Assembly (NCBI GenBank): GCA_025358085.1
Contig: JANYKT010000127.1
Coordinates: 1-39,194, forward strand
Reading direction: 5' to 3'
From: Deltaproteobacteria bacterium
GTDB lineage: Bacteria > Myxococcota > Myxococcia > Myxococcales > 40CM-4-68-19
DNA length: 39,194 bases
In this document: one piece after another, positions 15,383 to 39,076 of the stretch
How the letters are laid out: each line of letters starts with the position of its first letter
How positions within the stretch are numbered: position 1 is the first letter of the stretch
The notes under the pieces: generated by a model
The model's database searches: none
What the model saw: only the letters and a program-made list of their open reading frames with translations
Told to the model about the DNA's origin: nothing
Position numbers and translations under genes: made by a program

Positions 15383-15456
<74 letters not shown>

Positions 15457-15602: not shown

Positions 15603-15661
15603 AGCGCGGCCTTCATAGGCAGCAGGGCCGCAAAACAGCCGCGGCACGCAGCGAAAAGTTT

Positions 15662-15734: not shown

Positions 15735-15741
15735 TTTTCAG

Positions 15742-16054: not shown

Positions 16055-17902
16055 TCAATTGAAAGCTGCCCGCTGGTCGACGCCGGTGGGAAAGCCTGAG
16101 ACCGCCCAGCCCGCCGCGACCGCGGGCACCGCCAGCAGCGCTCCGGTCTCGATGTCGAAGCCCATTGCTGTCGCGGCTACCGGCGTGACAATTCCATCGG
16201 CGTTGCCCCCCTCGAGCGCCTGTTGCCGCTTGACCCAGGCCATCACCGTGGCGCCGCTCATGATCCCGTCGATGGGTCCGGCGTAACGGCGCGAGGCCGG
16301 CTCGGCGGAGAGCGCGTTCTGCAACGCGATCACCGCGGCGCCGGTCGAGCCCTGCCGCAGGCGCCGCAGCCCGCCCACACTCGCGCCGCTGCAGGCCAGC
16401 CGCGCTTCGCGGCCGGTGAGCAGGAGGTACGGGAACGCGCGCCCGTTCTCGGCGGCGGGCGCCGTGAGCCGCGCGAGCCCGGCCCGCTCGCGGAAGTCCA
16501 CCCATCCAGGCCCGGTTCTGTGCGGCGCCTGGTGGCCCGCGGTGTCGCCGCCGCCACGCACGGTCTGGCAGCCCTCCGACGAGAAGGTCTCGCCAGTGGT
16601 GTCGCGGCTGGGGTGGATGTTGTCGCCGGGGTTGAGCAGGTCGAAGAAGTCCGAGGTCTGGTAGGTGGTGTCGTCGCGCGAGCGGAGCACGACGATGCGC
16701 GGCGCGTTCTCGACGAAGACTCCCTCGAGGTGCAGGCGGTCCGCGGCCGGCCGGTGCCCGCCGACGTGATACCCGTAGCGCCCCGTGAGCAGCAGGTTGC
16801 AGGCCTCGCCGCCGCCAGCATAGCGAGCCATCGCGCCAAGATTCGGAATCGTGGATCCGCGGAAGGCCGCCACCTTGCCGGCGGCGTCGCCCGACCGGCT
16901 CCAGACTCCCAGCACGCAGTGGTTTTCCCGGTGGTCGGGCAGGTCTTCCGAAAGCGCGACGCTGCTCGCGAAGCTGCCGTCGTAGGTGTCGTCGGTGAGG
17001 CGGCAGCCGCGCAGCCCGAAGAGGATCACGCCCCTATCGCCGGTGGTGGCGTCGAAGGCGTTCCACTCGCAGAGCGTCTGCAGTGCCGCGGCGGTGAGCT
17101 GGAACTCCGACGACATGCCGGCGGTCGCGTCTGCGAGGTGGCGATAATCGGGCGAGACGTCGTCCTGGGCCCAGCCTCCGATGCGGCGCACGCGCCGGGG
17201 ACTGCCGATGGCGGGATAGGCCTCGCCGTCGTCGCTGTCTATGCCGGCGCCGCGCTCAGCAATGAGCCGCACCAGTTCACGCGTGGCGTGCAGGTAGCGG
17301 TGAATGGCACGGGCGATGGCGCGCGCCAGGCGCTCCAGCCGTTCGTGGCTCTCGCGGCCGTCTTCGCGCCCACGGCCTTTTTCACGGTTGCCTTCCTCAC
17401 GGTCGCGGCCTTCCTCACGGTCGCGGCTATCGTGCTCACGAGCCTCCTCGCGCTCCGAGCCGTCCTCCTCATCGTTCAGCTCGTACAATTCCAGCAGGCA
17501 CGCCGCCGTCCGCACGCCCACCGCCTCGGGCCGCAGCACCGCGAGGTCCGCTGCTTTTACGCCGCGGTCAGTTCCCGCCTCGGCGGCGAGCTCGCGCTGC
17601 AGAGTGCCGGCCAGGTCGCGGGAAGCCCCGCTGGAGCGCGCGTGCACCCAAGTCTCGCGCTCGCGTCCGCCGTGAAGCGAGAGGAAGACGGCCGCGTTCG
17701 CATCACGCGCCAGCGCCGCCCGCGCCGCGAGCGGCACGGAGATGTCGCAATCGCGAGTCAGGATCACCTGCACCTCCGGCCCCAGCGCGCGCGCCACCCG
17801 CCGCGCCAGCAAGAGCGCCCGCGCCTGCTCGCGCGGCCTCGGCGACGATCCGCCCTGCCGTGCGCTTCCGCCGTGGCCGGGATCGATCACCACCGCCGTC
17901 AC
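16055..17902 (-). CDS. Cluster gene 16: Amidase_3 - charged linker - YkuD-like signature - PG-binding protein
   Basis: A 615-aa protein starting at GTG 17902 (GTGA overlap with the upstream gene). Residues 3-140 are Amidase_3: His10 (DPGHGG), Glu25, His77 and Glu138 occupy the zinc and catalytic positions, but surroundings are divergent (SLHGG for SIHxN, CLLELYEL for LVEVGF). Residues about 143-188 are a run of Asp/Glu/Arg, followed by an unassigned region. NIHPS (His430) and FSSEGCQTV (Cys445) recall the His...SxGC signature of YkuD L,D-transpeptidases. Residues about 510-582 resemble a PG_binding_1 domain (LRQGSTGAAVIALQNAL ... GPIDGIMSGATVMAW). No signal peptide. Last gene of the cluster. 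Amidase activity may be reduced; the YkuD link is tentative. Confidence 0.7.
   Translation of the reverse strand: MTAVVIDPGHGGSARQGGSSPRPREQARALLLARRVARALGPEVQVILTRDCDISVPLAARAALARDANAAVFLSLHGGRERETWVHARSSGASRDLAGTLQRELAAEAGTDRGVKAADLAVLRPEAVGVRTAACLLELYELNDEEDGSEREEAREHDSRDREEGRDREEGNREKGRGREDGRESHERLERLARAIARAIHRYLHATRELVRLIAERGAGIDSDDGEAYPAIGSPRRVRRIGGWAQDDVSPDYRHLADATAGMSSEFQLTAAALQTLCEWNAFDATTGDRGVILFGLRGCRLTDDTYDGSFASSVALSEDLPDHRENHCVLGVWSRSGDAAGKVAAFRGSTIPNLGAMARYAGGGEACNLLLTGRYGYHVGGHRPAADRLHLEGVFVENAPRIVVLRSRDDTTYQTSDFFDLLNPGDNIHPSRDTTGETFSSEGCQTVRGGGDTAGHQAPHRTGPGWVDFRERAGLARLTAPAAENGRAFPYLLLTGREARLACSGASVGGLRRLRQGSTGAAVIALQNALSAEPASRRYAGPIDGIMSGATVMAWVKRQQALEGGNADGIVTPVAATAMGFDIETGALLAVPAVAAGWAVSGFPTGVDQRAAFN
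17391..17426. repeat. Tandem 18-bp repeat inside the charged linker
   Basis: CCTTCCTCACGGTCGCGG occurs twice head to tail (17391-17408 and 17409-17426, identical). On the coding strand it encodes part of the Arg-Glu-Glu-Gly-Arg-Asp linker, which could change length by slippage. Confidence 0.8.
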
Positions 17903-20109
17903 GATGCGTTCCCCGCGAACTGCGCAGCCAGCCCGTCCGGGTTGTACTCCCAGTGCCACGACTCCATGCTGTAGGGATAGAACCCGAACAGCGCCGCATT
18001 GAGCAGCATCCATTTATACGCGGGCGTCCGGTACATGCGGACCATCAGCTCCATCGAGCGGGTGCCTTGCGGCCGCACCGGGAGTGCGGGCGTGCTCAGC
18101 ACCAGGTCGACCGCGAGACCGTACATATGCGCTGAGTTGCCCTGCGCCACGGCGTTGGGGTTGTGGTTCCGCCGGCGTTTCTCCTCCTGCTCCTCAGCGG
18201 TTCGATACGAGTCGCCGATGGAAAGCCGCACGCCATCGGCCTCGGCCGCACGCGCCATCCGCACGAAGGCTGCACTGGCGGCGGGCCAGAGCCGCGCGGG
18301 GCGTTGCCCCGGCACCGCTACCACCTCGGCGGAGACGTCCCGGTAGGTCACCATCCGCGGCACGCGCCGCTCGTGGCAGACCTGCGCCATGGCAGCGAAG
18401 AGCGCCTTCGCCTCGGACTCGCTGGCGCGGTCGGGACCTCTGCCAGGGAAGAACTGCTGCGACCAGTCGACGCCGTTGAGGAAGTGTTCGCGGCGTGCGG
18501 CGCTGGCGATGCGGTCGAGGCCCGAGCGACCCGTGTCGAGGATGAAAGCGACGTCGTCGTTGTGATCGAGGCCGAGTGCCGGCTGCCCGCGCCTGGGGGA
18601 CCCGAGCGCTGGCAAGGCGGCAGCCTGCGAGAGATTCGCGCGCTCCGGCGCGAGCAGCGAGGCGCAGTGCGTGGACGGCGGCAGCTCGACCGGCGCGGGT
18701 GTCAGCTCCTGCGAGGGGTCCACGAGCAGCTGCCACCCGAAGGTGTGCGGGATGGCGGGGTGCCCGACCTCCGTCCGTTCGACGCGATAGTAGCGGCCCA
18801 GGAAGGCGGCCAGCCCGGGGTCGGTCAGGGTCTGCAACGCGCACGAGATGATGTGGTGCAGCTTGGTGGAGGAGGGGGCCGTTCGACCAGCGGTGAAGAG
18901 GCACCGGAGCGATCCGCCATCGGTGCGCATGTACTGGCGCCAGGCTTCTTCGCTGCCCATCGGCGCGAGCGCGGCAGCGTCGCGGCGCAGGCGCGAGAGC
19001 ACCCAGCGGGCGGCGTTGGCCACGCCGTAGTAGGTGCAGTCGAACATCTCCACCTCGTGCGGATCGGCGTAGTGCAGTACGGCCTCCAGTGCCTGGCCGC
19101 CGGCCGAGTGCGCGCTGGCGATGAAGCGCTGCCCCGCGCCCGACAGGCTGCCGGCGGGCTGTGACAGCTGCGTGGTGGCGAATCGGTCGAGGCCCCAGTT
19201 GGTGAAAGCGTCCAGCGCTGCCGCGTCGCGGGCGACGGCGCTGAAGTCCACGTTGAGCGAGGCCGCCACCGGCAGGCCGGCGGGCGCGAGGCCCAGCGTG
19301 GGCCGGTCGCGCAGCGGCGGGTCGTCGCGCGTAGCGGCAGCGGGGTCGTTGAAGTCGAGCCCGCCCCGGTCGGCCTTCGCCTTGATGGTGGTGATGCCAG
19401 CGCCGTGGAAGTGCAGGAGCAGGTCCACACAGGCGACGCTCATCGGCTGCACGTTCCAGCGCAGCGCCGCGTTGGGCGACAGGTGCGAGGCCAGCATCGG
19501 CGCGTCGGTCTCCTCGGCGCCGCTGCCCACCGGGAGCCCGTAGCCGCGCCGCTTGCGTGCGTGCGCGGCCAGCGCGGAGGCCATCGATCGCGCCAGTGCG
19601 TCCAGCTCGCGCGAGTCGAGCAGCCGCGCCTCCCCCTGCGGATCGCTGAGGAAGTCCACCTCCACCAGGCAGGCGGCGGTGTCTTCCCCCAGAAGCTCGG
19701 GGCGCAAGATGGTGAGGTCGGCGGACTTGAGCCCTCGATCCCTGGAGCCCACCGACAGTGCGCGCTGCAGGGAGCGCGCCAGCGCGTGGGAGGCGCTGCC
19801 GGCGCGCGGGTGCACGAAGGTCTCGACGCCCCGCTCGCCTCTCGCGCCGGCGTTGGCGTGGATGGAGATGAAGAGATCCGCGCCTGCGCTGCGGGCCTTC
19901 CGCGCGCGGGTCTCGAGCGGCAGATTCACGTCGCCGTCGCGCGTGAGCTGGGCCTGGATCGAGCGAGGCAAGAAGCGCCGCACGCGCTCGGCGAGCTGGA
20001 GCGAGACCTGCTTCTCGCAGGTCCCGGACGGTCCGAGGCAGCCGAGCGCCGACGAGCCGCCCTGGTCGCGCGTGCCGCCGTGGCCTGGGTCGATGACGAT
20101 GAGCGACAT
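17899..20109 (-). CDS. Cluster gene 15: Amidase_3 - alpha/beta-hydrolase-like - VanY/M15 carboxypeptidase
   Basis: A 736-aa three-part enzyme. Residues 3-185: complete Amidase_3 with His10, Glu32, His84 and catalytic Glu150 (CLVEVDFLSDP). Residues about 225-450: alpha/beta-hydrolase-like, with FHGAG near 234-238 as oxyanion hole and AHSAGG with Ser335. Residues about 590-725: peptidase M15B (D-Ala-D-Ala carboxypeptidase) with YRTAEEQ, SAHMYGLAVDL (His661, Asp668) and ESWHWEY (Glu716, His719). It could cut both the sugar-peptide bond and the peptide stem terminus. AAAGGAG lies just before the ATG. No signal peptide: the catalytic core begins at residue 3. Domain calls at both ends are firm; the middle is weaker. 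Confidence 0.85.
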   Translation of the reverse strand: MSLIVIDPGHGGTRDQGGSSALGCLGPSGTCEKQVSLQLAERVRRFLPRSIQAQLTRDGDVNLPLETRARKARSAGADLFISIHANAGARGERGVETFVHPRAGSASHALARSLQRALSVGSRDRGLKSADLTILRPELLGEDTAACLVEVDFLSDPQGEARLLDSRELDALARSMASALAAHARKRRGYGLPVGSGAEETDAPMLASHLSPNAALRWNVQPMSVACVDLLLHFHGAGITTIKAKADRGGLDFNDPAAATRDDPPLRDRPTLGLAPAGLPVAASLNVDFSAVARDAAALDAFTNWGLDRFATTQLSQPAGSLSGAGQRFIASAHSAGGQALEAVLHYADPHEVEMFDCTYYGVANAARWVLSRLRRDAAALAPMGSEEAWRQYMRTDGGSLRCLFTAGRTAPSSTKLHHIISCALQTLTDPGLAAFLGRYYRVERTEVGHPAIPHTFGWQLLVDPSQELTPAPVELPPSTHCASLLAPERANLSQAAALPALGSPRRGQPALGLDHNDDVAFILDTGRSGLDRIASAARREHFLNGVDWSQQFFPGRGPDRASESEAKALFAAMAQVCHERRVPRMVTYRDVSAEVVAVPGQRPARLWPAASAAFVRMARAAEADGVRLSIGDSYRTAEEQEEKRRRNHNPNAVAQGNSAHMYGLAVDLVLSTPALPVRPQGTRSMELMVRMYRTPAYKWMLLNAALFGFYPYSMESWHWEYNPDGLAAQFAGNAS

Positions 20110-20130
20110 CTTGATCTCCTTTGCGAAGGG

Positions 20131-21387
20131 TCAGACGGGATAAACGGCGGGCTGTCCGGGGTGGGCCTGGAACGATTCGCGCACGCGCACTTCGCGCCGG
20201 GCGCCCTCGCCGCGGCCGCCGGCGTGGAGGATCTGCGTGCCGCCGCCATCGGCCTCGGCCGCGCTCAGGTTGCGTTGGAAGTCGCTGAAGGGGACGCTGT
20301 AGCGCTCGCCCTTCTCGATGGGCCACGGGTCCGCGATGCGCACCTGCGTCCCCGCGGGGGTGCCGTCGCCGTGCAGGCCGGTCACCACCACCGAGTGCAG
20401 GCCGGGGCTGGCCTCGCCCACCCAGAGCGGGCCGTGTTCCGAGAGCAGCCGCGCCAGATCGCCGGGGCCGCGGATGCTGGCGGTGGTCAGCGTCAGGCCC
20501 CAGGTAAGGGCCAGCGCCGGAACGTCGTGGGGCTGCAAGCCCTCGCGGTATTCGCGCCAGCGGCCGGCGGCGCGCGCCACGTCCAGCGGCTCCACATGCA
20601 GCCGGTCGCGCCAGCCCACGATCATGGCCGCGGCCGCCGCCCAGCAGCTCATGCCCGTCTGTTGTGGCACAATCGGAACCTCGTTCCAGATGTCTTGCGC
20701 CTCGCGCGAAAGCGACACCTCACCGCGCCCCTGCGGCTGCGCCACGCTCGCCGGCGGTTGAAGCTGCGGCCAGGGGCAGCTCACCCCGATGAAGCCCGAG
20801 ATGCCGGTGGCGATGGCCCGCGCGACCTGGTCCTTGTAAGCCGCGGTCTTGAGGCGCGCCTCCTCTGTCGGGTTGGAGAGGAAGCTGACCTCGGCCAGAC
20901 AGCAGGAAGTGCGCGGCTGGTGATTGGCGGGGTCCAGCACCACGAAGCCCTTGAGGCCCGCTCTGGCCGGCGTGGTCTTGACCCCGCGGTTGCGCAAGCC
21001 GAGGGCGCTGACCAGCTCGCCCTGCACTGAGCGGGCGAGATCGGCTGAGAGCGCCTGCACGTGGAGCAGCGGATTCCAGAGGAAGGTCTCGCTGCCGTTT
21101 GTGGCGGGGCGGGCGTCGCCGTTGAAGTGAATAGAGACGAAGATGTCGGCGCCATTGCTGTAAGCGACGCCGGCGCGATCGATGAGGCCCACGTTGATGT
21201 CCGACGTGCGGGTCATCACCACCGTCATCCCGCACAACCGCAACAAGGCGCGCACGCGCAGGCCGACATCGAGCGTGAGGTCTTTCTCGAGCAGCCCCGT
21301 GGGGCCCGTGGCGTTGTTCGGGCTGGAGCCGCCCACTATGCGGGTGCCGCCGTGGCCTGGGTCTATGACGACAAGGGGATTGGGCAT
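20131..21387 (-). CDS. Cluster gene 14: Amidase_3 fused to papain-like cysteine protease
   Basis: A 418-aa fusion. Residues 4-200 are Amidase_3 with intact His12, Glu34, His87 and Glu166 (CLAEVSFLSNPTEEA). Residues about 233-385 are a papain-like protease of the C70/AvrRpt2-like type: VPIVPQQTGMSCWAAAAAM with Cys248, GLHSVVVTGL with His331 and IADPWP with Asp353. A short C-terminal Arg/Gly-rich tail follows. No signal peptide. Two bp separate it from the preceding 1078-aa gene. The protease may process cluster proteins or act on target-cell proteins; neither is shown. Confidence 0.85.
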   Translation of the reverse strand: MPNPLVVIDPGHGGTRIVGGSSPNNATGPTGLLEKDLTLDVGLRVRALLRLCGMTVVMTRTSDINVGLIDRAGVAYSNGADIFVSIHFNGDARPATNGSETFLWNPLLHVQALSADLARSVQGELVSALGLRNRGVKTTPARAGLKGFVVLDPANHQPRTSCCLAEVSFLSNPTEEARLKTAAYKDQVARAIATGISGFIGVSCPWPQLQPPASVAQPQGRGEVSLSREAQDIWNEVPIVPQQTGMSCWAAAAAMIVGWRDRLHVEPLDVARAAGRWREYREGLQPHDVPALALTWGLTLTTASIRGPGDLARLLSEHGPLWVGEASPGLHSVVVTGLHGDGTPAGTQVRIADPWPIEKGERYSVPFSDFQRNLSAAEADGGGTQILHAGGRGEGARREVRVRESFQAHPGQPAVYPV

Positions 21388-21389
21388 CT

Positions 21390-24300
21390 TCAGCCTCCGA
21401 TCGATCGAGAGTCGGTAAAGGTGTTGCCGGCGTCATCGGTGACCGCGAGCGTGAGGACGCCGCGAGCGCCCGCTGCGGACTGGTACAACGGCCCCTCCAC
21501 GCGCAGGCCGTTGAAGAACCACGCGGCCGTGCCGCCGTCGTTGGTGTCAGCCCAGAACTGGCCACTGGCAGCAGCGCGAGCCACCACGTAGCGCGCGGGC
21601 ACAGCGGGCAGCTGCGGCGCGGGCAGCTCGGCGGCACTCCAGCCGTCGGTGGCCGTCACGCGGAGGACCGGGTCCACGCCGTTGCGGCGCAGGCGGCCGA
21701 GGGACAGCGTCACCGTGCGGTCGCAGGGAGCGGCGCGCGCCACCGGACACCAGCCGCGCCCCTGCGCCATCTCGATGGTCACCTGCGGCGACATGCCCTG
21801 CGAGTGGTGGTAGCTCCAGCCCACCGTGCTCCCCTCCAGGCGCAGCAACGACAGCTCCGGCGCACCGGGCGGGCGATCGAGCCGCTGCAACACCCGGGCG
21901 CCGGCGCGCAACTCGACGGTGACAATTTCTGCAGACATTGGCAGCAGGCAGGCGAACTCCACCGGCAGCCCGGCGCGCACCGCGGCGACGGGACGCACGA
22001 CCAGCTCGCGTCCCGCGCGGTCGAGCGCCACTGCGGTGAGGCCGGTGTCATGCGCGGCACCCGGACCGGTGGCGCGGGATTCGAGCCGCGCGGTGTCGAG
22101 CCGCAGCCGCAAGCGGCGGTCGATGCTGCCGCGCAGACGCAGCCGTGGCGCCACGGGTTCCGCTTCCGGCAGCGCGTCGAGAGCCTGCGCGAGGCCGCTC
22201 GCGGTGGACACGGCCACGCGCCGCGCGCACTCGGCGGGCGCGGTCACCACCAGCGCCGCCGGCCCGCCCACCGTCAAGTCCATGGCGAGCCGGTCTGGTG
22301 CCGGCACATCGGTCCAGGGAGCGTCGGGAAGCAGCGCGACCCAGCACGCGTCTTCCAGACCGGGCTGGCTGGCCGCGAAGCGTTCCAGCCGCTCCAGGAG
22401 GTCACTCGCACCGGGCGCGTCCGGCGCGCTGATCTCGCCGTTGACCACCAGGTCCTCGTCCTCCAGCCAGACCGGCTCGATGAGTTCGATGCGGTTGCCC
22501 AGCCTCGCCTCCGCGAAGGCGACGGCGCGCGCGAGCAAGGCGTCCGAGACCCGCGCGAACCCGCTCGCGAAGACCGCAGGCCGCACCGCGACCAGCCGGA
22601 TGGCCGCCGTGGGCTCAACGAAGCGCAGCGGTCCGATGGGCTTCGCGTCGCCATTCCTCGCGAACGCGCGGGACACCGCCAGGCCGCCGATGAACCCGTC
22701 CTTCGCCGCGCTACCGGGCAGTTCCACCACGGCCGCGAGGCCCGCGATCGCTCCGCTCACCGGCGCCGCGAGCCCGGGGCCGGAGACGAAGGTGAGGAGC
22801 GGGTCGGACAGGTCGATGGTCAGGGCTACGGGATCGGCGGTGGTCGTGGTGTAGACCGGCGGCGTGCTGCGGTCGGTCCAGAGGACGGTCGCGCGTACCT
22901 CGGCGGGTCCATCGCTCTCACCGCTCAGATCGGCGATGGACGAAAAACTGCCGGGCGCGCCATCGGGAAACGCGATGTCGCCGACGTTGATAGGCAGGCC
23001 GGCCTGCAGAACTTCGACGTGGACGCTCTGCACGTCGCCGGGGACGGAGACGACCGCGGTGACCGTGAAACCGTCGCGGACCGTCTGGGCCGCTTGCGGC
23101 GCGGCGATGCGAATGGACGGCGCCGCGGCCGGGCCCAAAGGCAGCGCCGGCGAAGACGCCGCCGCAGAGCCGGAGGACGGCGCCGGCTGCGGCCCAGGCG
23201 CGCCCCCGGGCTCCATCGTCGAGAGCAACGCGGGCCAGAACCAGCTGTGCGGAGCGCGGAAATGGAAAACGGCGTGCGCGGTGAACGGCTGGCCGGAGAC
23301 GAATCCAGAGGTCCGCGCGCCCTGCGTGACCCAGACGCGGTCAATCACTGGCGCGGCCAGCATCTCAGTGGCCGCCTCGCCGCAGCCGTTGGTCGCGCGC
23401 AGCGTGAGCTTGCCGTCGGCCGGCAGGGTGGCCTGGTCCAGCAGCATCGAGCCGTGCGCGGCCAGCTGGTCCGGCAGTGGCTCCAGCCGCAGCGTCACCG
23501 CGCCCTCGACGGACCACTCGAACGCGAGCCCGCCCGCCGCCGCGTCCACCAGCTGCGCGCGCAAGATGGTGGGCCGTCCGCCTCGGAAGCGGTTGGCACC
23601 GCCGGGTGGCGGCGAGGGCGGGTCGCCGAGGTCCCGGATGCTCTCCACCGGCACCGGCGTCCCGGCGAGCCCCGGGTTGCGCGCGTTCTGGTCGCGCCAG
23701 AAGCCGCGCAGCCGCGCACGGAGTGCATTGGCGGCGGAACGGATCTTGTCGTCGGTGTAGCCCAGCCAGCCCGCCGCAGCGCCTGCCGGAACCACCGCCG
23801 TCAGCCCTTCCGCGGAGAGCGTGGCCGGCGCGGCCCGGGGACGGGTGACACCGGAGGCGAAGACTGCGCGCAGGGTGGCGGGATCCTGCACCGAGAGCTT
23901 GCCCTTGACCTGCACCTGGCTACCCGCACACGCCTGGACGGGCTCGATGGCCGAGATGCCGCGCGCGAGTGCACCGTCCCAGGGCTGGTCGCTGCCGAGC
24001 TGCTCGAGCACCTGCGACTGGAGCGCGTCCAGCGTGGCCCAGCGCGCGCGCTCGGCGGGATCGGCCAGGAAGGAGCCCACCACGCTGCTCCACGCGGACG
24101 CGCGCGCTTCGGGATCGAGCAGGGCCGCCAACAACACCCGCAGTTGCGCGGGGGCGAGGCCGGCGGCGCCCTGGCCCGCGATGGCCTCGGCGATCCCCGA
24201 GGCGAAGGCGAGGCCGAAGACGGTGCGCGCCAGCTGGTGCTCGAGGCGGGTGGCGGCGCCGGCGCGCCCGGCGGCTAGCGCGACCAGGATCAGCACGCCC

Positions 24301-26023: not shown

Positions 26024-26026
26024 GCG

Positions 26027-29141: not shown

Positions 29142-29154
29142 GGCGATGCGCTCT

Positions 29155-30408: not shown

Positions 30409-30429
30409 CAAACTCTCCTTGAGGGGGCG

Positions 30430-31461
30430 CTACGCGACCTCGCGCGAGCGCGAGGGCCGTGCGTCGTAGCCAACCGGCCGCAGGTAGATGGAAAGCCGCG
30501 CGCCCATCTCGGGCCGCACGCGGAAGCTGAGAACGCTGATGTCGCCGGGGTCCTTCTCGTCGTCGGGGGTCATGGCCTGCATCCAGGTCTGCAGCGCGCG
30601 CTGCGACTGGGGCCGCTCGGCCAGGGTCAGATTCACCAGCTCGCGCAGCTGCTGCGGCGGGTCGGCGACGCCGCCCAGCAGCACGTCGAGCTTCAGCTCC
30701 ATCCCCTTGGAGGTGTCGCGCAGCCCCAGGATGACCGAGCCCTCTGGCAGCACGAACCGCCCGCCCAGCACCACGCCGGTCGCTGCCAGCAGGCTGGGCA
30801 GCTGCTGCCCGATGCCCAGCCGGTTCAGGAGCGGTTCCAGGTCCAGCAGCCGCAGGTCTCCCTTGTGGAAGAAGTAGACCCGCTGCGCGCCGGCCGCGCG
30901 CCCGCACGCTATGCTGGTGAAGATAGGCGTCAGTCCCGGCAGGCAGGCCATGGCCACCCGCGAGGCGTGCTGCAGGTTTGCCGGGAGGTCGTCGAGCTGG
31001 TTCGGCCCCAGCTCGTAATAGACCTTGGCCTCCTGCACGCCGCCCTGATCGAAGGCGCCGCCAAACCAGGCTCCGAAGCGCGCGCCGCCGTGGATGCGGC
31101 TGCCGCGCCAGGCCTCGGACCTCGAGTCGAACCACTTCAGCGCGGGCGCGCCGAAGCTCTGGTTGACGATGCGTCGCATCTCGCGCCCGGCCTCTTGCTG
31201 CCGCGCTTGCGGCGAGGCCGAGGGGCCCAGCGGCTCCAGGTCCAGCCGCAGCGAGCTCCCCATCAGCTCGGAGTAGCTGTGTTCGAGCGGCATGTGCCCG
31301 GGCGTCAGGCAATTCTCCCCGTAGCGCGGGTCGCCCAGGGGCAGCTCGAAGCTGCGATCGAGCATGGCCCCGATGGTCTGGACGGGGTCGTGCGTCCCCA
31401 GCCTGCGGGAGGCGATGGTGAGGCGGCGCCGGGCCACCTCGGATGCGCGGACGTTGGGCAT
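30430..31461 (-). CDS. Cluster gene 7: unassigned alpha/beta protein
   Basis: A 343-aa protein whose ATG at 31461 is set by AAGGAGG placed at normal spacing, overlapping the stop of the upstream gene. Recurrent strand segments alternate with helices: EAKVYYELGPNQLDDLP, AQRVYFFHKGDLRLLDLEP, MELKLDVLLGG and VLSFRVRPEMGARLSIYLRP. This repeating alpha-beta-beta-alpha rhythm loosely recalls ABBA-type prenyltransferases, but I see no sequence motif that proves it. No signal peptide. Function unknown. Confidence 0.65.
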   Translation of the reverse strand: MPNVRASEVARRRLTIASRRLGTHDPVQTIGAMLDRSFELPLGDPRYGENCLTPGHMPLEHSYSELMGSSLRLDLEPLGPSASPQARQQEAGREMRRIVNQSFGAPALKWFDSRSEAWRGSRIHGGARFGAWFGGAFDQGGVQEAKVYYELGPNQLDDLPANLQHASRVAMACLPGLTPIFTSIACGRAAGAQRVYFFHKGDLRLLDLEPLLNRLGIGQQLPSLLAATGVVLGGRFVLPEGSVILGLRDTSKGMELKLDVLLGGVADPPQQLRELVNLTLAERPQSQRALQTWMQAMTPDDEKDPGDISVLSFRVRPEMGARLSIYLRPVGYDARPSRSREVA

Positions 31462-31472
31462 GGTGGCCTCCT

Positions 31473-33341
31473 TCAGGCGCGCGGAATGACGTTGCCGGGC
31501 ATGGCCACGTTGATCCCGCCCACGTTGGCAAGATTGCCGATGGAGCCGAGCATGTTCCGCACCGCTTCCGGCATCTGCTGCTGCGGCATCGGCGGGATGG
31601 TGGGGGCCTGCTGCACGTCCACCGGCGAGGAGAACTTGTCGATGGAGTCGTCGGCCGTGCCGGTGACCGCCAGCCAGCGCTCGACGTTGCTGCGGATGTC
31701 GGCGCCCTTGAAAATGTCGGCGGTGTTGGGCTGGAAGGAAGCGACAGTGGAGAGCTGCGGCGCATTCGCGGCGAGGAAGAGCATGACGTTCGCGCCCGCC
31801 TGCGCCGTGGTCTTGTAGCGCACGCTCGAGACCGCGCCGCCGAGGTACAGCGTCGAGACGCGATCGATGAGCTGCCACATGTCGCGCACTCCGTACGCCT
31901 GCAGCACGTCGGCGCTCGAGAGCATGTCCTTCACCGTGCCGACGAGCTTCTGCAGCTCGACCGCGATGAAGTGCGAAGAGGCGTAACCGTGGAGCGAGAG
32001 GTTGACCGCGAGGTCGCGGGCCGCCTTGACGGCCTGCTCGGAGGTGACGCGGGTGAGATCGGTGTTGATGACCTGGATGCCCGCGGTGTTGCCGAACTGC
32101 CGGTTATAGATGCTGACCGCCGAGAGGAACCGGATCCAGTTGTCGGAGAAGTTGCGGTTGAGCAGCGTGTCGGACGCCGCTCCCTGCGCCACGCCGAAGC
32201 AGCGGCCGTAGGCGTTGCGGCGCTCCACTTCGGTGATGCGGTTCGGCGCGGTCTTGAAGTAGTCGTAGATCTTCTGGCCGCCGGGCCCGCGCGAGATGGG
32301 CAGCATTCCCGCGAGGAAGTGCTCGACCACGCGGTCCACCACCGCGAACATCTTCATCTCCTCGAGCTGCGAGCTGAAGTAGATGGCGGCGAGCGCGCGC
32401 ACGTTGTCGGCGATGATGTCCACCACCGTGCCCTGGTCGAGGTCGGGCAGCGAGATATCGATGCCCGCTGAGGCGCCGTCGATCACGTCGCCCAGCATCA
32501 GCGCAAGCGAGTTGTCGATGCGCATGTTGATCTGCGGATCGCTGGGATCGACGCGCTCGTCCACCAGTCTGCGCGTTACGCCCGAGAGCTGCCGCGTCCA
32601 GACGGTGATGCGCGCCGGGTTGGTGGTGGTGCCGACCGTGCGCAGCCGGTCCAGGACCCTGCCGAAGAGCGAGGACGAGCTCTTGAACTCGCGCACTGCG
32701 TCGGCCATGGCGGCCGCGAAGCCGGGCACGATGTAGAAGGTGTTGGGACCGCTGCTGGCAGCGACGTTGCCGGTGGCCGGATCGATGGCGATGTCGTCGG
32801 GTCCAGGGCGCGCCGTCGAGGGCCGCCCCATCGACGGGTCGGTGCGGTTGTCGGCGAAGAGCAGGCCGTACGCCGAGAGGAAGGTGAGGCGGATGGCGCG
32901 GCTGGCGTCGGGCTCGGTGGGGTCGGGGCAGACCGCGAACGAGTCCGGACTGATGGGCACCACCTGCGCCACCGTGTCCGGCGAGGCCAGCTGGTACTGG
33001 TTGATGATCAGGTAGCGGACCGCGAGGTAGAGGTTCTTGTAAAGCGCGTTTTTGGCGTCGCGGTCGCCGGAGGAGACGGTGGTGTCGTCGGGACGGATGA
33101 AGATGTCCGGGTAGGAGGCGATGCACGAGGGCTGCGGAGGCACGGGCGTGCTGCCGGAGCCGGAAGAGCTGCCAGTAGGATTCGGGGGCATGGGCGGGAG
33201 ACCTCCAGGATTCGGCGGCGATGCGCCGGTCGGGGTGGATGATTCCGACCCAGCGGAAACGCTGGTCGGGTCTTGCGGCTCCGCCCCGTCCGCTTTTGGC
33301 GGGAGTGCGGCGGAAGAGTGGGGATGGTGGTGGTGGCTCAT
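31473..33341 (-). CDS. Cluster gene 6: unassigned 622-aa protein with His-rich N-terminus
   Basis: Starts MSHHHHPHSS, then a disordered Pro/Ser/Gly-rich segment to about residue 75. The remainder is a globular, mainly helical protein beginning YPDIFIRPDDTTVSSGDRDAKNALY and containing NLYLAVRYLIINQYQL, FNxxxR-like variants absent, DISLPDLDQGTVVDIIADNVRALAAIYF, AYGRCFGVAQGAA and a C-terminal Met/Pro-rich end (IPPMPQQQMPEAVRNML). No family recognised; no export signal. ATGA overlap with the subtilase gene upstream. Length and lack of catalytic motifs suggest a structural component. Confidence 0.65.
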   Translation of the reverse strand: MSHHHHPHSSAALPPKADGAEPQDPTSVSAGSESSTPTGASPPNPGGLPPMPPNPTGSSSGSGSTPVPPQPSCIASYPDIFIRPDDTTVSSGDRDAKNALYKNLYLAVRYLIINQYQLASPDTVAQVVPISPDSFAVCPDPTEPDASRAIRLTFLSAYGLLFADNRTDPSMGRPSTARPGPDDIAIDPATGNVAASSGPNTFYIVPGFAAAMADAVREFKSSSSLFGRVLDRLRTVGTTTNPARITVWTRQLSGVTRRLVDERVDPSDPQINMRIDNSLALMLGDVIDGASAGIDISLPDLDQGTVVDIIADNVRALAAIYFSSQLEEMKMFAVVDRVVEHFLAGMLPISRGPGGQKIYDYFKTAPNRITEVERRNAYGRCFGVAQGAASDTLLNRNFSDNWIRFLSAVSIYNRQFGNTAGIQVINTDLTRVTSEQAVKAARDLAVNLSLHGYASSHFIAVELQKLVGTVKDMLSSADVLQAYGVRDMWQLIDRVSTLYLGGAVSSVRYKTTAQAGANVMLFLAANAPQLSTVASFQPNTADIFKGADIRSNVERWLAVTGTADDSIDKFSSPVDVQQAPTIPPMPQQQMPEAVRNMLGSIGNLANVGGINVAMPGNVIPRA

Positions 33342-34783
33342 GCGGACGCTCCGGTTTGCGAAAGAGAGGCGGGCTCCGTGGCGGCTTCCAGCGCGCGCAG
33401 GGCGGCCGGCACGTCGAGGATCCCCGAGCCGAAGCCGGCGGCGCCTCCGCGGAAGGGCGCGGCCGACTGGACCAGCAGCGCGCGGACCTGGGCGGGCGAG
33501 ACCGGCTCGCTGCGGCGCGCGGCATGCGCGAGCAACAGCGCGCAGGCCGCGGTGACGAAGGGCGCGGCGAAGGAAGTGCCGGTGCTGAGCTGGTAGCCGC
33601 GCAGGCCTGCGGTGGGGATGTCTTCGCCCGGCGCGCAGAGCGCCACATGCAGGCCGCGGCTGCTGAACGGCGAGGGCCTTCCGCTCGCGCCCACTGCGCC
33701 GACTGCGATCACGCCCGGCAGTGCGGCCGGGAAGTAGCGCGTAGAGTCGCCGGTGTTGCCCGCGGCCGCCACCAGCACGCAGCCGCGCGTGAGCGCATAG
33801 CGGATGATCTCCCTGTGCGGCGCGGCTTCGCCTTCTTCCAGCGCGGTCTCGGGCGTGCCGAAAGAAAGGTTGAGGACGCGCGCGCCCAGGTCCACGGCGG
33901 CCTTCATGCCCGCGTCGATGTCGGGGATGGCGCCGATGGCGGTGACGCCCTGCTCCGCGCCCATGCGCGCGCCGGCGAGCACCCGCACCGGCAGCAGCCG
34001 CGCCGCGCCAGCCAGCCCGCGCGGCAGCCGCTCGCCCAGCGCTCCGATGATGCCGGCCGTCGCCGAGCCGTGGCCCATGTCATCGCGCGGCTCCTGGCGC
34101 CGGCCCGCTCCGGTGCGGATGAGCTTCACCCAGCGGGAGAGCCGTCCCTGCGGCAAGCTGACCGCGTCGACGCCGGGCCGCAGGCGACCGTGGAATTCCG
34201 GGTGGTCGAGATCGACGCCGCTGTCGAGCACCGCCACGATGAGCGCGCTGTCGCCGGGCTCCAGGCGCAGCGCTTCGGCGGCACCGATCTGCCGCGCGAC
34301 CGAGGCGCCGGCGAAGTGCGCGAGAGCCGCCTGGGAAGAACGTGGGCGGCCGTCCGCGCCGTTGTGCGCGTAATCGGCCGCAGCGTCGAGTGCGCCTCCG
34401 AAGGGCGTCTCGCACAGCCAGTGGCGCGAGGCCATCTCCACCGCGGCCAGGCCGCGCAGATCACGCACCAGCGCATCGAGGTCGGCGTCCGGGTCGAGGT
34501 CCACGCGGTAGGTGCGCGACAGGCCGGTGTCGACCTCGAGCGCGTCGAACCCGAGATGCCGGCGCCCCGGCAGCGCGACCGATCGAGCTGCGCCGAAGAC
34601 GCGCGAGACCTTCATCGCCGGAGTGAAACGCCGCAGCACGCGCTCGACCCCGCCGCCCTCGAAGCGCGGAAACGGCGAGCGCGCGCCCAGCACCACGTCG
34701 CCGTGGTGCGGAATGTCCGCAGGGTCCTCGCCGGGGCTGACCCGGAAGACGATGCGGCCTCGCACGGCGTGGCGGACCGGCAT
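33338..34783 (-). CDS. Cluster gene 5: subtilisin-like serine protease (S8)
   Basis: A 481-aa protease. Catalytic triad Asp187 (VAVLDSGVDLDHPE), His238 (DDMGHGSATAGI) and Ser404 (STGTSFAAPFV), with oxyanion Asn343 (AAAGNTGD). Residues 1-170 form a prodomain-like N-terminal part that lacks a signal peptide and starts in the overlapping stop/start TGATG shared with the upstream gene. Catalytically complete. Probable roles: maturation of cluster proteins or proteolysis in a target cell. It sits between the 283-aa IPT-like protein and the 622-aa protein. Confidence 0.92.
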   Translation of the reverse strand: MPVRHAVRGRIVFRVSPGEDPADIPHHGDVVLGARSPFPRFEGGGVERVLRRFTPAMKVSRVFGAARSVALPGRRHLGFDALEVDTGLSRTYRVDLDPDADLDALVRDLRGLAAVEMASRHWLCETPFGGALDAAADYAHNGADGRPRSSQAALAHFAGASVARQIGAAEALRLEPGDSALIVAVLDSGVDLDHPEFHGRLRPGVDAVSLPQGRLSRWVKLIRTGAGRRQEPRDDMGHGSATAGIIGALGERLPRGLAGAARLLPVRVLAGARMGAEQGVTAIGAIPDIDAGMKAAVDLGARVLNLSFGTPETALEEGEAAPHREIIRYALTRGCVLVAAAGNTGDSTRYFPAALPGVIAVGAVGASGRPSPFSSRGLHVALCAPGEDIPTAGLRGYQLSTGTSFAAPFVTAACALLLAHAARRSEPVSPAQVRALLVQSAAPFRGGAAGFGSGILDVPAALRALEAATEPASLSQTGASA

Positions 34784-35634
34784 CACGGCGCGCCTCCGTG
34801 ACCGTTGCGGGGACCGTCGTTCCACTGCGCGCCGTCGGGCCGCTTCAGCGCCTCGCCGCGCGGGCTGGGCTCGGGCGCTGCTCCCGGTCTCGGCGCAGGC
34901 TCGCCCGGCAGCCGGTAGAAACCCGTGGCGCGCTTCTGCCCGACCAGCACCTCGAACTTTCCCTCGTGGTGGTGGCTCATGGGCCGCACCAGCAGCTCGC
35001 GCGGGCTCGACTCCAGCACCTCGACCGGCTCGCCCGAGAAGAGAACCTCGGGGGGCGCGATGCCGTGCGCGAGGTTCGCGCCACGGATGCGCAGGAACGG
35101 CACGCCCAGCCCCCCCGCCACCACTTCCTGGCTGGTGACCTGTGGCTCGGCCGCCTGCAGCAGCAGGCTCTCGAGCTGCATCATGGGAATGCCGGTGAAA
35201 GCCTGCACCGACTTGGGGTCCGCGTTCTGCGAGAGCTTGCGCAGCTGGCCCACGGTGCGGACACCGGCCCACTCCAGCCGCTTGCGCGCGTGCGGATCCA
35301 GCGCCTGCGACGCGCCGATCTCGTCGAGCTGCCGCGGGTCCTCGTCGGCGGTGAGCGAGAGCGTGTTCTCCTCCACCATGCTCTTGGTGATGGTGGTGAA
35401 GGTGAAGTGCAGCGTGCTCGCACCCGCTTCGTTGGGACCGGCGTGGCGCATCAGCATCCGGCCGCCCTGGTCGGGCTCCCAGAAGACGTGCAGTTCCACC
35501 GCCAGATCGCGCAGCGCGAAGGTGAGCGGACGGCCGGTGCGGGCCTTGAGCGCGAGCAGGTCCTGCGCGCGATCGAGCTGGGCGGTGAAGGCCTGGACGA
35601 ATTCCTCGACCGGCATGGCGCGTCCCTGCGTCAT
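34783..35634 (-). CDS. Cluster gene 4: small beta domain - helix-hairpin-helix - IPT/TIG-like protein
   Basis: A 283-aa protein in three parts. Residues about 1-95 (VEEFVQAFTAQLDRAQDLL ... LTFALRDLAVELHVFWEP) resemble the trypsin-co-occurring (trypco) type of small domain associated with proteases in conflict systems; this is a resemblance, not a proven match. Residues about 108-160 (LDPHARKRLEWAGVRTVGQL) form a helix-hairpin-helix-like unit. Residues about 172-240 (PFLRIRGANLAHGIAPPEVLFSG) look like an IPT/TIG strand set, with HHH near its end. The tail is Pro/Gly-rich. No signal peptide. Directly coupled to the subtilase gene. Confidence 0.6.
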   Translation of the reverse strand: MTQGRAMPVEEFVQAFTAQLDRAQDLLALKARTGRPLTFALRDLAVELHVFWEPDQGGRMLMRHAGPNEAGASTLHFTFTTITKSMVEENTLSLTADEDPRQLDEIGASQALDPHARKRLEWAGVRTVGQLRKLSQNADPKSVQAFTGIPMMQLESLLLQAAEPQVTSQEVVAGGLGVPFLRIRGANLAHGIAPPEVLFSGEPVEVLESSPRELLVRPMSHHHEGKFEVLVGQKRATGFYRLPGEPAPRPGAAPEPSPRGEALKRPDGAQWNDGPRNGHGGAP

Positions 35635-35870
35635 GCCGCGCTCCCGCCGAGCACGAAGGTGAGCCGGACCCGGTCGAGCGGGTGATCGAAGCCGGTGGCG
35701 AGCAGGCCGCGCGGAAGAGTGGCCAACAGACCGGCGTCGTCGAAGCGGGCCTCGAGCGGCAGGTCGAGGCGCAGATCGGTGACCTGCACTGCGATGGAAT
35801 CGGCCGGGCCGCCCGCGCGGGACGGCACCGACTCGGCGAGCGCGACCACCAGGTGCTCGAAGGCGGTCAT
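35631..35870 (-). CDS. Cluster gene 3: small beta-domain protein (79 aa)
   Basis: A 79-aa protein beginning MTAFEHLVVALAESV. The motif DLRLDLPLEARF followed by GLLATLPRGLLATGFDHPLDRVRL suggests a compact beta fold, and its general pattern recalls the N-terminal part of the next gene. ATGA at 35867-35870 and ATGA at 35631-35634 couple it on both sides. Longer in-frame versions that run into paralogue E are not used because the ATG at 35870 is ideally placed. Possible adaptor; family not firmly assigned. Confidence 0.65.
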   Translation of the reverse strand: MTAFEHLVVALAESVPSRAGGPADSIAVQVTDLRLDLPLEARFDDAGLLATLPRGLLATGFDHPLDRVRLTFVLGGSAA

Positions 35871-37141
35871 TGCGGGGGGCCCCCGGCCGGGCGCGGGGCT
35901 GCGGGAGAGGGCACGGCCACTGCTGGGGCCGCCCCGGGCGCGGCCGCGGCGGGAGCTGCCACGGGCGCCTGCCAGCGCGCGTTCGAGTTGATCAGCTCGA
36001 TGGCGCGGCTGTCGGCGAAGCGCTCGAGCGGAAACGTCTCGGTGCGGAATTGGATGCTGACCTCGCCCATCAGGTCGGCCTTGATGGACGCGTCCGCCTG
36101 CGCGTTCACGCCCAGCGTGGACACCATCGTGCTGACGTTCGAGGGCGCGAGGCTGCTCTGCGCGATGTTCCCGATGCCGGTCTGGACACCGATGTCCGCG
36201 CGCACCTGCTCGCGCGCCGCCGCATGAAATTGAAGCTTGGCCTTGATCTGGCCGTTGTCCACCACGATGCGGCTGACACCCATGAGCACCAGGCTCGCGA
36301 GCGTCTGCATCCGCTCCTCGCCCAGCGCGTTGCGGCCCTTCTCCAGCAGCTCGCCGTCGGTCAGCTCCTCGGTGAGGTCGCGGCCGGCAAGGCCGTAGCG
36401 CGCCAGCCACTTCGGGCCCGGCGCGCCGTCCTCTTTCGGGAGCAGCTTCGGCTGCCCCGCCTTGCCGGGCTCCGGAAGCTGCAGCTTGAGGTCGTTCGGA
36501 TAGCGCTGGACAAACCAGTCGCGGACCTGGTTCGGCGAGACATTCTCGCTGGCGAAGTCGTCCACCGAGCGCGAGATGCTGGCCACCAGCTGCGCGTACT
36601 CGCGCATCTGCTGCGCGGTGGCGTCGACGATGGACTTGAAGGTGCCGGTGACGAGCCCCGACACGAACGCGGCGAAATCGACCGCCTCCAGCGCGCGCCG
36701 GGCGCGGTCGCCGATCTGCGCGGTACCCGGCGGAGGCGGTGGCGCCGTAGGCTCGGGCGGCGCGGTAGGCGCGGGCGGCTGCTGGCCAGTGCTCCGCTGC
36801 GAGGCCGGGAGCGGCCCTCGGCCGACGAAGCGCTGCTGCTCGCGCTGGCGCATGTCGCGCTCAATGGGCGATTCGTCGAGCGGCTGCGCGTAAGGGTCGT
36901 GAGCGTCCCAGGGGAGAGCGCGCGCAGGTGCTCGCGACCCGAGCCGCGAGTTTTCCTGCGAGAGAGCGCGGCCGGGCTCGTGCGCTTGCGCGCGGCCCGT
37001 CTCCTGCGGCGCAAGCGCGCGCTGGATCTGGCCCAGGTCGCGATCAAGCGCGCGGCGTTCCGCGTCGGCCAGCCCCGCGAGGCCGGCCGATGCGCGGATG
37101 CTCCGCAGCGCCGCAAGCGCGAGGGCGGCAGCGTCGGCCAT
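35867..37141 (-). CDS. Cluster gene 2: paralogue E of five-member family
   Basis: A 424-aa protein separated from the other four paralogues by five other genes. N-terminal Ala-rich helix, then a Pro-rich spacer (80-145; DPYAQPLD, APPEPTAPPPPPG). Block 1 at about 151-217 (AVDFAAFVSGLVTGTFKSIVD; NQVRDWFVQRYP), block 2 at 274-306 (MQTLASLVLMGVSRIVVD) and block 3 at 357-386 (GEVSIQFRTETFPLERF). Pro/Ala tail from 390. It starts three bp after the first gene of the cluster and overlaps the 79-aa gene by ATGA. Confidence 0.78.
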   Translation of the reverse strand: MADAAALALAALRSIRASAGLAGLADAERRALDRDLGQIQRALAPQETGRAQAHEPGRALSQENSRLGSRAPARALPWDAHDPYAQPLDESPIERDMRQREQQRFVGRGPLPASQRSTGQQPPAPTAPPEPTAPPPPPGTAQIGDRARRALEAVDFAAFVSGLVTGTFKSIVDATAQQMREYAQLVASISRSVDDFASENVSPNQVRDWFVQRYPNDLKLQLPEPGKAGQPKLLPKEDGAPGPKWLARYGLAGRDLTEELTDGELLEKGRNALGEERMQTLASLVLMGVSRIVVDNGQIKAKLQFHAAAREQVRADIGVQTGIGNIAQSSLAPSNVSTMVSTLGVNAQADASIKADLMGEVSIQFRTETFPLERFADSRAIELINSNARWQAPVAAPAAAAPGAAPAVAVPSPAAPRPAGGPPQ

Positions 37142-37144
37142 GCG

Positions 37145-39076
37145 CTACCCGGTCCCCACGGCAGCGTCGGAGAGCTCCTGCGCCTGTTGCAGCCGCTGCA
37201 ATCGGGCGTGCGCGGCCGTCCCGCGCGCGGCGTCCACCAGCCGGTCCAGCATCTGGGGAAGCGAGTCCACCGGCAGCGGCGCGTGCGCGCCCAGAGCCCG
37301 CACGGCGCCCGACAGCGCGGCGTGCGTGCGTCCGTCGAACGCTCCCGTTTCGGGCAGCTGCGACTTCCGCTGGAACGCGCGCACGTCATCGTGGCCGAGC
37401 GCCCGCAGCGCCGTTTCGCGATCGGCGTGCGTGCGCACCGGGCCCACGGCGCGCGCCACCCACGAGAGTCCCGCGGCGTTGCCCAGCGCCAGCGCGCGGT
37501 CGTGCACCAGCGCCAGTGCGCGCGGCGAGTCAAGGCCCAGCCAGCCGGCGGCCTCGAGCTGCGGGTCGAGAAACTCCAGCACCGCCACCTCGTTCTGCGC
37601 GGGGCACATGGCAGGCGATCCGGCAACGCTGCGCAGCCGCGAGAGCCACGGCTCCTCCCAGAGGTGGCGGCCATCTACGGCCTGGAGCCGACCGTCCGGC
37701 GAGGCGGCGCAGGTGACCTGCAGCAGCTCCTCCTGGCCCGGGCCGAAGCACTGCGCGAAGCCGGCGCGATCCCGGCGTTGCAGCGTGCGAAGCAGCTTGC
37801 CCAGCGCGCCGCTGCGCTGCGTGAAGCCGAAGAGCCCGAGCGCCACGCCCTCGTCCTCGCCGTGCTCTCCCGGAAAGCTCGCGTCCACCGAGCCGTAGCC
37901 CCGAGCCGTGGCCGAAGCGCGCGCCACGGCCCCGGCGACAGCGAGCTTCTGCTCGACAGTCAACGAGAGCGCACGCGGGGCCGCCGGTACGGCGCGGCCG
38001 TAGCGCTCGCCCGCGGGACCGGACGGCGCGAGCGGCTCGTAGACCACCTCGACGGGGAGCCCCAGTGCCGCCACCGCGGGGCCGTCCTCGGCGCCATCGG
38101 CGGCGGCGAGGATCTGGACCTTTGCGCCCAGCGCGCCCACCGCGGCGCCGTCCTCGAGGTGCCCCTGCTGGGCGTCTTCGTCGGAGAGCAGCGAGTCGTC
38201 CTCACCGGCGCGCAGCAAGGCGAAGCCGTCCTCGGGCGCGTCCGCTTGCTCATTTTCGAGAGCTTGGGGAGCGCGTGCGGCGGGCCGGCCATAGGTCTGC
38301 GCGCGCGCGGGCGGCTGTCCATAACCGTCGGGGTCTTCCGCGCGACGTCCGGCAGGGCGCGGGCCTGGCGAGCCGTACGCCTCGCCGCCGGATGGAGGCG
38401 CATCCGGGCCTGCAGATAGTTCGGGCGCCGCGCCGTCCAGGTCGTCGTAGCACTCCAGCTCCTCGGCGGCAGGCAAAGGTTCTGCGAGCGGCGGATCGAC
38501 CGGCACCTCCGCTGCGCCAAGCTGCGCCGAGTTCCAGAGCGCGCTGCCGTAGCCGTCGTCGTAACGTCCGCGGCCCGCGGGCTCGCGCGCGGCGGTGGCC
38601 AGGAGAGCGTCGTCGCCGCCCCAGGACAGCCGGTGCTGCGGGGAGGCTCCGTACCGCGCATCGGGCGCGGCGCCGACCCGCGCGCGATCGAGGCCGCGGC
38701 CGGTGAAGTCCGAGGAGAGCGCGATGGACGGTGCACGCTCCAGCGCCGCAGGGTGCACGCTGAATCGCGCGTCCTCGCCGCGCGGGCTCCCGTAGGTCGC
38801 AAGCGCGTAGTAGATGCGCTGCGCGCCAGCGAACTGCTGCAGCTGCCCCGACGGCAAGAGATAGGTGGTGTCGGGCCCGCTTGCAGCGATCAGCCCGCGC
38901 TCGCGAGTGGTGAAGAAGTTGCGCGGCGTGCGCTCCGCCTGCAAGTCGCGGTGGAACAGCCGGGGGTCAGTGGCGCAGGCGATCTCGATCCATCTTTGTC
39001 CGGGCGCTCGCACCGTGAACGAGGCGACGGGAAAGCGGTCGGAGATCTGCGTGCGGCCGGGTGTGATCGATTCCAT
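37145..39076 (-). CDS. Cluster gene 1: lysozyme/chitosanase-like hydrolase with PG-binding domain
   Basis: A 643-aa protein, first in the operon. Residues about 10-135: a conserved N-terminal module (RFPVASFTVRAPGQRWIEIA, NFFTTRERGLIAASGPD, AGAQRIYYALATYGS), often seen in otherwise unnamed proteins. Residues 135-365: disordered, acidic and Tyr/Gly/Pro-rich. Residues about 368-550: lysozyme-superfamily/GH46-like segment, with GLFGFTQRSGALGKLL and an FAQCFGPG...EELL pattern. Residues about 553-600: PG-binding-like unit (DDVRAFQRKSQLPETGAFDG). No signal peptide. An in-frame TGA just upstream fixes the ATG at 39076. Confidence 0.65.
   Translation of the reverse strand: MESITPGRTQISDRFPVASFTVRAPGQRWIEIACATDPRLFHRDLQAERTPRNFFTTRERGLIAASGPDTTYLLPSGQLQQFAGAQRIYYALATYGSPRGEDARFSVHPAALERAPSIALSSDFTGRGLDRARVGAAPDARYGASPQHRLSWGGDDALLATAAREPAGRGRYDDGYGSALWNSAQLGAAEVPVDPPLAEPLPAAEELECYDDLDGAAPELSAGPDAPPSGGEAYGSPGPRPAGRRAEDPDGYGQPPARAQTYGRPAARAPQALENEQADAPEDGFALLRAGEDDSLLSDEDAQQGHLEDGAAVGALGAKVQILAAADGAEDGPAVAALGLPVEVVYEPLAPSGPAGERYGRAVPAAPRALSLTVEQKLAVAGAVARASATARGYGSVDASFPGEHGEDEGVALGLFGFTQRSGALGKLLRTLQRRDRAGFAQCFGPGQEELLQVTCAASPDGRLQAVDGRHLWEEPWLSRLRSVAGSPAMCPAQNEVAVLEFLDPQLEAAGWLGLDSPRALALVHDRALALGNAAGLSWVARAVGPVRTHADRETALRALGHDDVRAFQRKSQLPETGAFDGRTHAALSGAVRALGAHAPLPVDSLPQMLDRLVDAARGTAAHARLQRLQQAQELSDAAVGTG

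Follow-up and report, generated by a model that had tools for sequence, protein, structure and literature searches.

What are the 16 genes that follow one another on the minus strand of this window, the 39,194-nt stretch of contig JANYKT010000127.1 analysed here at its full length, and do they form one system? The window belongs to an assembly of 217 contigs. The open reading frame listing and the codon-position guanine-cytosine content agree, in line with the initial annotation, on 16 successive minus-strand genes (g1 to g16) running from position 39076 to 16055, with neighbouring genes either overlapping by 4 bp or separated by 2–21 bp. The contig ends at 39194, only 118 bp past g1, so further genes may lie upstream of g1. 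These genes constitute a conserved unit, far beyond chance, and the module recurs as a block in no fewer than 16 further genomes spread over several phyla.

Conservation of the module as a unit

The initial annotation had treated the genes as one operon and had named a lack of co-conservation in other genomes as grounds for refutation; the genes are in fact co-conserved, the block keeping its gene order in other genomes across phyla. The core reads, in order, cargo gene (or g1), g2, (g3), g4, g5, g6, g7, g8, g9, (g10), g11 and g12, and was found in this order outside the window in the genomes of 11 other species, on a Burkholderia plasmid and in four genomes detected with g7 alone. A scan of ~85,000 species genomes with the paralogous family A yielded 19 loci, 17 of which have the cluster neighbours in the same order. 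Eleven of these (L008, L009, L011, L013, L014, L016, L017, L019, L022, L023 and L024) are complete through the core, the first gene being cut by the locus end in some of them, and the remainder comprise five loci cut by contig ends and one decayed locus (L020) in Cupriavidus necator A5-1. The latter lacks g2–g6 and has broken g11 and g12, with g7–g9 persisting beside a fumarase-like gene, and is a natural remnant. The hosts include Gamma-, Beta- and Alphaproteobacteria, several “Deltaproteobacteria”, Acidobacteria, Chloroflexi, Gemmatimonadetes and Nocardioides. In an independent test, a search of Burkholderiales with g7 alone identified five of 399 genomes, namely one already known and four new ones, and the whole core is present in all four.

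The one RefSeq-annotated full copy that we examined, on a Burkholderia pyrrocinia plasmid, consists of “hypothetical proteins” apart from an S8 peptidase and an amidase. A Tolypothrix plasmid carries a diverged version with S8, peptidoglycan-binding, g6-, A- and g4-like genes. The initial reading of a multi-gene unit with peptidoglycan- and protein-attacking enzymes stands, but its extent is refined: the core is g2–g12 plus the cargo gene, and g13–g16 and the set of enzymes are variable. The predicted prenyltransferase fold of g7, the g6/g11 pair, the shared N-terminal domain of the cargo proteins, the mobility of the module and sigma-54 control in relatives had previously gone unnoticed.

Horizontal movement and possible insertion site

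The pairwise distances of g4, g5, g6 and g7 correlate with r of 0.84–0.93, a value reached in none of 2000 permutations, and the joint tree places Bradyrhizobium (Alphaproteobacteria) with Albitalea (Betaproteobacteria) and Desulfobulbus with Sphingomonas. Because the gene distances agree with one another while the tree conflicts with taxonomy, the sequence comparison indicates that the module moves horizontally as one unit. Its presence is patchy, at ~1% or fewer of the genomes in four groups (5/399, 1/397, 1/294 and 2/195, each count including the query genome), and a family A search of 12 members of the window's own family was positive only for the window genome.

Synteny of the window DNA with three sister genomes spans four tRNA genes (Pro, Arg, His and Lys; 15288–15735) and breaks off at the 3′ end of the last one, tRNA-Lys(CTT) (15661–15735, plus strand), with the 3′ end of the cluster lying 320 bp beyond. 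Past tRNA-Lys, the sequence is different in each sister genome. This pattern suggests insertion at tRNA-Lys, and the tRNA site may be an integration hotspot. A search for attachment-site repeats found no second copy of the 22-bp 3′ end of tRNA-Lys in the assembly, so that the synteny break is the sole basis for reading the region as an island. One sister genome (G003) has an apparent tyrosine-recombinase gene ~9 kb downstream of tRNA-Lys. In Candidatus Thiodiazotropha, an integrase-like gene, by eye of the integron/tyrosine-recombinase type, lies directly behind the cluster (L008:17913–18935).

Two new protein families, A and B

Family A comprises the five paralogues seen in the initial annotation, g2 (35867–37141), g8 (29155–30408), g9 (27969–29141), g10 (26884–27972) and g12 (24626–26023), which share 24–43% identity with g10 on sequence comparison. 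Among them, g10 is restricted to the window-type clade, and g12, at which the conserved core ends, has a long Pro/Ala-rich tail. Family B is composed of g11 (26027–26887) and the C-terminal half of g6 (31473–33341), which were aligned by hhalign with a probability of 99.9%. A and B are two new protein families.

The AlphaFold2 model of g9 has a predicted local distance difference test score (pLDDT) of 71 and displays a helical bundle and two long strands around a low-confidence Gly/Ser-rich loop. FliF/EscJ-like matches to the family A fold had probabilities below 0.15 and were disregarded. Tryptophan is 4-fold enriched in the loop of family A (37/54 sequences; the sequences compared are related, which makes the p-value indicative only), and g8 and g2 of the window lack a loop Trp. 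Lone family A genes with a loop Trp occur in an Erythrobacter metagenome-assembled genome (MAG) (L025:852–2216) and in Alkalihalobacterium (L026:2675–3544), in both cases without g7 or the rest of the module. These lone genes point to a function of family A outside the module. As two genomes carry loop-Trp family A genes without g7, prenylation of the loop Trp by g7 is weakened as a necessary link, and it is put forward here as a hypothesis only. The lone gene of Erythrobacter is followed by a gene for a 173-residue protein rich in Ser, Ala and Lys.

A predicted prenyltransferase barrel in the core

Sequence searches with g7 (30430–31461) against Pfam, NCBIfam and PDB profiles returned nothing. 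Its AlphaFold2 model, with a pLDDT of 91.1 and a predicted template modelling score of 0.89, is built of the α-β-β-α (ABBA) repeats of the prenyltransferase (PT)-barrel, and the model together with the Foldseek search shows the five repeats of such a barrel. Structural similarity search using Foldseek retrieved CymD, IptA, PriB and DMATS enzymes with a probability of 1.00 and TM-scores of ~0.7, despite an identity of only 17–18% to CymD, IptA and PriB. All of 17 sequences keep E60 on strand 1, and R72, K146, Y148, R194 and Y326 on later strands are nearly invariant. By analogy with FgaPT2, not from superposition, we read these residues as the putative pattern of a catalytic Glu and diphosphate-binding Arg, Lys and Tyr. 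R96 is also conserved. The model and the alignment lead us to predict with confidence that g7 is a PT-barrel protein with a conserved putative active site, and it is predicted to be indole-prenyltransferase-like.

In a myxobacterial relative (G094), a homologue of g7 that keeps this Glu was found between a TcA gene with a TcA_TcB_BD domain and an SpvB/TcB gene (L031:14733–15734); that genome has no other gene of the cluster. The homologue in this toxin complex (Tc) locus is a second link of g7 to a large protein complex devoid of signal peptides. No account of a prenyltransferase-like gene within a Tc locus was found in the open-access literature.

The subtilase and the small core proteins

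The subtilisin-like protease of the initial annotation is g5 (33338–34786), a subtilase of family S8 (Pfam E-value 7.5e-40) that has a conserved N-terminal region of ~170 residues and lacks a signal peptide. Its triad D187/H238/S404 is invariant in 16 homologues. A second subtilase-like gene is present in the Desulfobulbus copy, upstream of the sigma-54 activator (L038:3000–4190). The conserved protein g4 (34783–35634) has an IPT/TIG-like C-terminal region, the Tolypothrix homologue giving a TIG match with an E-value of 7.8e-4, just below the cut-off. The small protein g3 (35631–35870; 79 residues) is without a Pfam match and has orthologues in six loci by phmmer.

Cargo proteins and their enzymes

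The module combines wall- and protein-degrading enzymes, of which the window encodes four cell-wall-hydrolase-like proteins and a papain-like domain, as initially described. Among the 16 proteins, Pfam gave matches above threshold only for g5, g14, g15 and g16, and sub-threshold matches to PG_binding_1 for g1 and g16. Amidase_3 was found in g14 (20131–21387), g15 (17899–20109) and g16 (16055–17902) with E-values of 4.7e-41, 5.1e-33 and 8.2e-19, respectively. The papain-like domain is the Peptidase_C70 domain of g14, of AvrRpt2-like fold (E-value 1.3e-26; 93.7 bits against a cut-off of 19), and g15 adds a VanY carboxypeptidase domain. The middle regions of g15, with an α/β-hydrolase-like AHSAGG motif, and of g16, with an S-x-GCQ motif (both seen by eye), look like additional enzyme domains without a Pfam match.

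The fourth hydrolase-like protein, g1 (37145–39076), consists of an N-terminal domain (residues ~1–170), a disordered linker with a YDDG motif, and a glycoside hydrolase family 46 (GH46)-like domain followed by a PG_binding_1-like C-terminus. The C-terminal part matches the chitosanase of PDB entry 6lwu with an E-value of 1.9e-6, and the Glyco_hydro_46 profile matches six of seven g1 homologues, though not g1 itself. No invariant Glu or Asp is found in the N-terminal, catalytic part of the GH46-like domain, which may thus be for binding only.

In the second clade, the gene preceding g2 encodes a giant protein of ~1160–1760 residues (stop-to-stop frames). Most of these giants have an Amidase_2 domain, most a Trypsin_2 domain and most one or two C70 domains; the Burkholderia cargo gene combines Amidase_2, C92 and C70. 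Over their first ~170 residues, these proteins are homologous to the g1 N-terminus; a low-complexity linker, often with a YDDGFG motif, comes next. The window type has this domain on g1, and the amidases, VanY and C70 on the separate genes g14–g16. The theme that stays constant across the clades is the pairing of wall amidase and papain-like peptidase, together with a common N-terminal domain, behind which amidase_2/3, trypsin-like, C70 and C92 papain-like, VanY and GH46-like domains are interchangeable. Because the N-terminal domain of g1 recurs as the N-terminus of the enzyme-bearing giants, it looks like a cargo-docking module. It has neither a Pfam match nor a relative in the PDB. The 1079-residue protein g13 (21390–24629), with a possible Ig-like stretch, is shared only with the close relatives L008, L009 and L011.

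Cell location and regulation

Hydropathy, a crude measure, revealed no convincing signal peptide or membrane helix in the 16 proteins, g13 being borderline. Just upstream of the cluster, the Burkholderia, Sphingomonas and Desulfobulbus relatives carry a gene for a sigma-54 activator. In all three, a −24/−12 site with one mismatch is located between the activator and the cargo gene, compared to ~0.02 expected over the three intervals, and the three relatives are predicted to be under sigma-54 control.

Comparison with known systems

The module partly resembles several known systems. Polymorphic toxins (Zhang et al. 2012, PMC3482391) also have a shared N-terminal domain on varying C-terminal enzymes, papain-like and subtilisin-type processing peptidases, and a patchy distribution. 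They differ from the module, which has several enzymes in tandem per cargo protein, a conserved 11-gene core, two new paralogous families and a prenyltransferase fold. In Pfam and PDB searches, no known trafficking domain of polymorphic toxins (PAAR, WXG, TpsA, SpvB, etc.) was found in the N-terminal cargo domain. There is no obvious candidate for an immunity gene in the window; the small orphan g3 is a core part and is not tied to the type of cargo.

Extracellular contractile injection systems (eCIS/PVC), tailocins and the type VI secretion system are likewise multiprotein units encoded in operons, with cytoplasmic proteins and with domains of the lysin-like and protease kinds. Consistent with the initial annotation, which had noted that phage, sheath and ATPase parts are missing, neither Pfam (16 proteins) nor PHROGs (10 proteins) identified any sheath, tube, baseplate or spike gene, and Pfam found no AAA+ ATPase (ClpV or eCIS ATPase) among the 16 proteins. 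A prophage or tail machine was rejected, as the searches turned up neither a phage record nor a viral contig and PHROGs (10 proteins) gave no structural match. Type 10 secretion cassettes of holin, endolysin and spanin (PMC10847048) likewise tie wall hydrolases to the release of large signal-less complexes; in the module, by contrast, no holin or spanin was found and the hydrolases are fused to a docking-like domain within a large core. A known anti-phage defence system was also rejected, as PADLOC, run on 10 of the 16 proteins, gave only generic subtilase/IetS-protease matches for g5.

Cyanobactin clusters pair the subtilisin-like PatA/PatG with PatF-class prenyltransferases acting on Tyr, Trp, Ser or Thr (PMC4663559), and share with the module a subtilisin-like protease and an ABBA-fold prenyltransferase in one operon. 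The module is much larger and includes wall hydrolases, its g7 is nearer to the CymD/IptA-type enzymes, and scans against Pfam and NCBIfam found no cyanobactin or other ribosomally synthesized and post-translationally modified peptide precursor, YcaO or macrocyclase. With CymD, IptA and PriB, g7 shares the predicted fold, the conserved Glu on strand 1 and the Arg, Lys and Tyr on later strands; unlike them, it belongs to no known natural-product cluster, its gene lying instead in a hydrolase/protease operon and in one case in a Tc-toxin locus. A description of the cluster was not found in the open-access literature. The module thus resembles parts of each of these systems yet belongs to none, and we regard it, with caution and within the scope of open-access text, as a new system that matches no known one.

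Possible function of the module

At least 11 genes that travel together between phyla must act together. Our preferred, though tentative, explanation, to which we give somewhat less than an even chance, is that the mobile module builds a multiprotein cytoplasmic complex, armed with wall- and protein-degrading cargo and released against other bacteria. We infer its assembly, docking, modification, export and target as follows. Families A (four to five paralogues) and B (g6 and g11) would be structural subunits assembled in the cytoplasm, onto which the N-terminal domain of the cargo would dock. The subtilase might mature the complex or free the enzymes, and g7 might attach a prenyl group to an aromatic residue, carried by a subunit or by a small molecule, perhaps for membrane affinity. 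The loaded complex would then be released, through lysis or in some other way, and attack the walls of other bacteria. A more specific version, a new class of protein weapon, appears improbable, namely that A and B subunits form a hetero-oligomeric particle whose conserved hairpin-loop aromatic residues are prenylated by g7 for membrane insertion, and which delivers the docked multi-enzyme cargo after maturation by the subtilase.

Several points weigh against a released, armed complex. The family A model, at its modest pLDDT, has no match to a PDB or viral fold, leaving the particle without a structural homologue, and the two genomes with lone family A genes do without g7. The GH46-like domain is short of an invariant acidic residue, and neither an export route nor a receptor-binding part nor an immunity gene could be recognised in the cluster. 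Finally, no result shows that other cells, and not the producer, are the target of the wall hydrolases.

The strongest rival is self-lysis or abortive infection, in which a suicide or programmed-lysis device is triggered by stress, phage or development, the subtilase, which detects the trigger or is set free by it, releases the hydrolases, the cell's own wall is cut and its goods are freed to kin. All enzymes appear cytoplasmic, an immunity gene would be unnecessary, the patchy horizontal spread resembles that of defence systems, and the PspF-like single-domain sigma-54 activators of three relatives suggest control by envelope stress. Nevertheless, we consider it unlikely: no holin, spanin or pore-forming protein was recognised, PADLOC families are absent apart from the generic subtilases (10/16 proteins scanned), a core of 11–12 conserved genes is large for a suicide device, and the cargo enzymes vary as those of weapons do. 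Somewhat less probable still is a cyanobactin-like pathway, in which the subtilase and the ABBA prenyltransferase act on family A proproteins, with their conserved aromatic in the Gly/Ser-rich loop, to give prenylated proteins or peptides, the hydrolases being accessories. The pairing of protease and prenyltransferase classes in cyanobactin clusters, the Trp enrichment in the family A loop and the expected, putative active-site residues kept in g7 speak for it; YcaO, a precursor peptide and a macrocyclase are missing, however, and g7 best resembles indole prenyltransferases for free amino acids, which need no protein substrate. Moreover, loop-Trp genes occur without g7 in two genomes, g8 and g2 of the window have no loop Trp, and the conserved cargo hydrolases are left unexplained.

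Wall turnover often involves domains of the Amidase_3, VanY and GH46-like kinds, and the operon might by happenstance group housekeeping hydrolases for wall remodelling or for spores or cysts. This is very improbable, as the module is found in ~1% or fewer of the genomes per group, its tree conflicts with taxonomy, its enzymes lack signal peptides and its hosts have unrelated lifestyles; simple wall-remodelling genes were rejected on the distribution and the missing signal peptides. The fragmented window assembly might favour neighbours without common function, brought together by chance or by MAG mis-assembly, but this is refuted to near certainty by the same order in isolates and long contigs (Bradyrhizobium, Ramlibacter, Albitalea and one 4.2-Mb contig) and by the whole core in the four new g7 genomes.

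With the module come two new protein families and a new cargo domain, and the prenyltransferase fold gains a new setting. If the lytic-cargo explanation is true, the module would represent a novel type of bacterial weapon or lysis device and a source of naturally combined wall-degrading enzymes; if the prenylated particle is real, it would be the first nanomachine built with an indole-type prenyltransferase.

Sequence beyond the cluster

The long minus-strand frames at 11559–14713 of the window are shadow frames, since the sister genomes conserve the plus strand there with 72% protein identity. Within this region, the plus-strand frame at 12963–13910 resembles an amidase and is distantly similar to g14 and g15.

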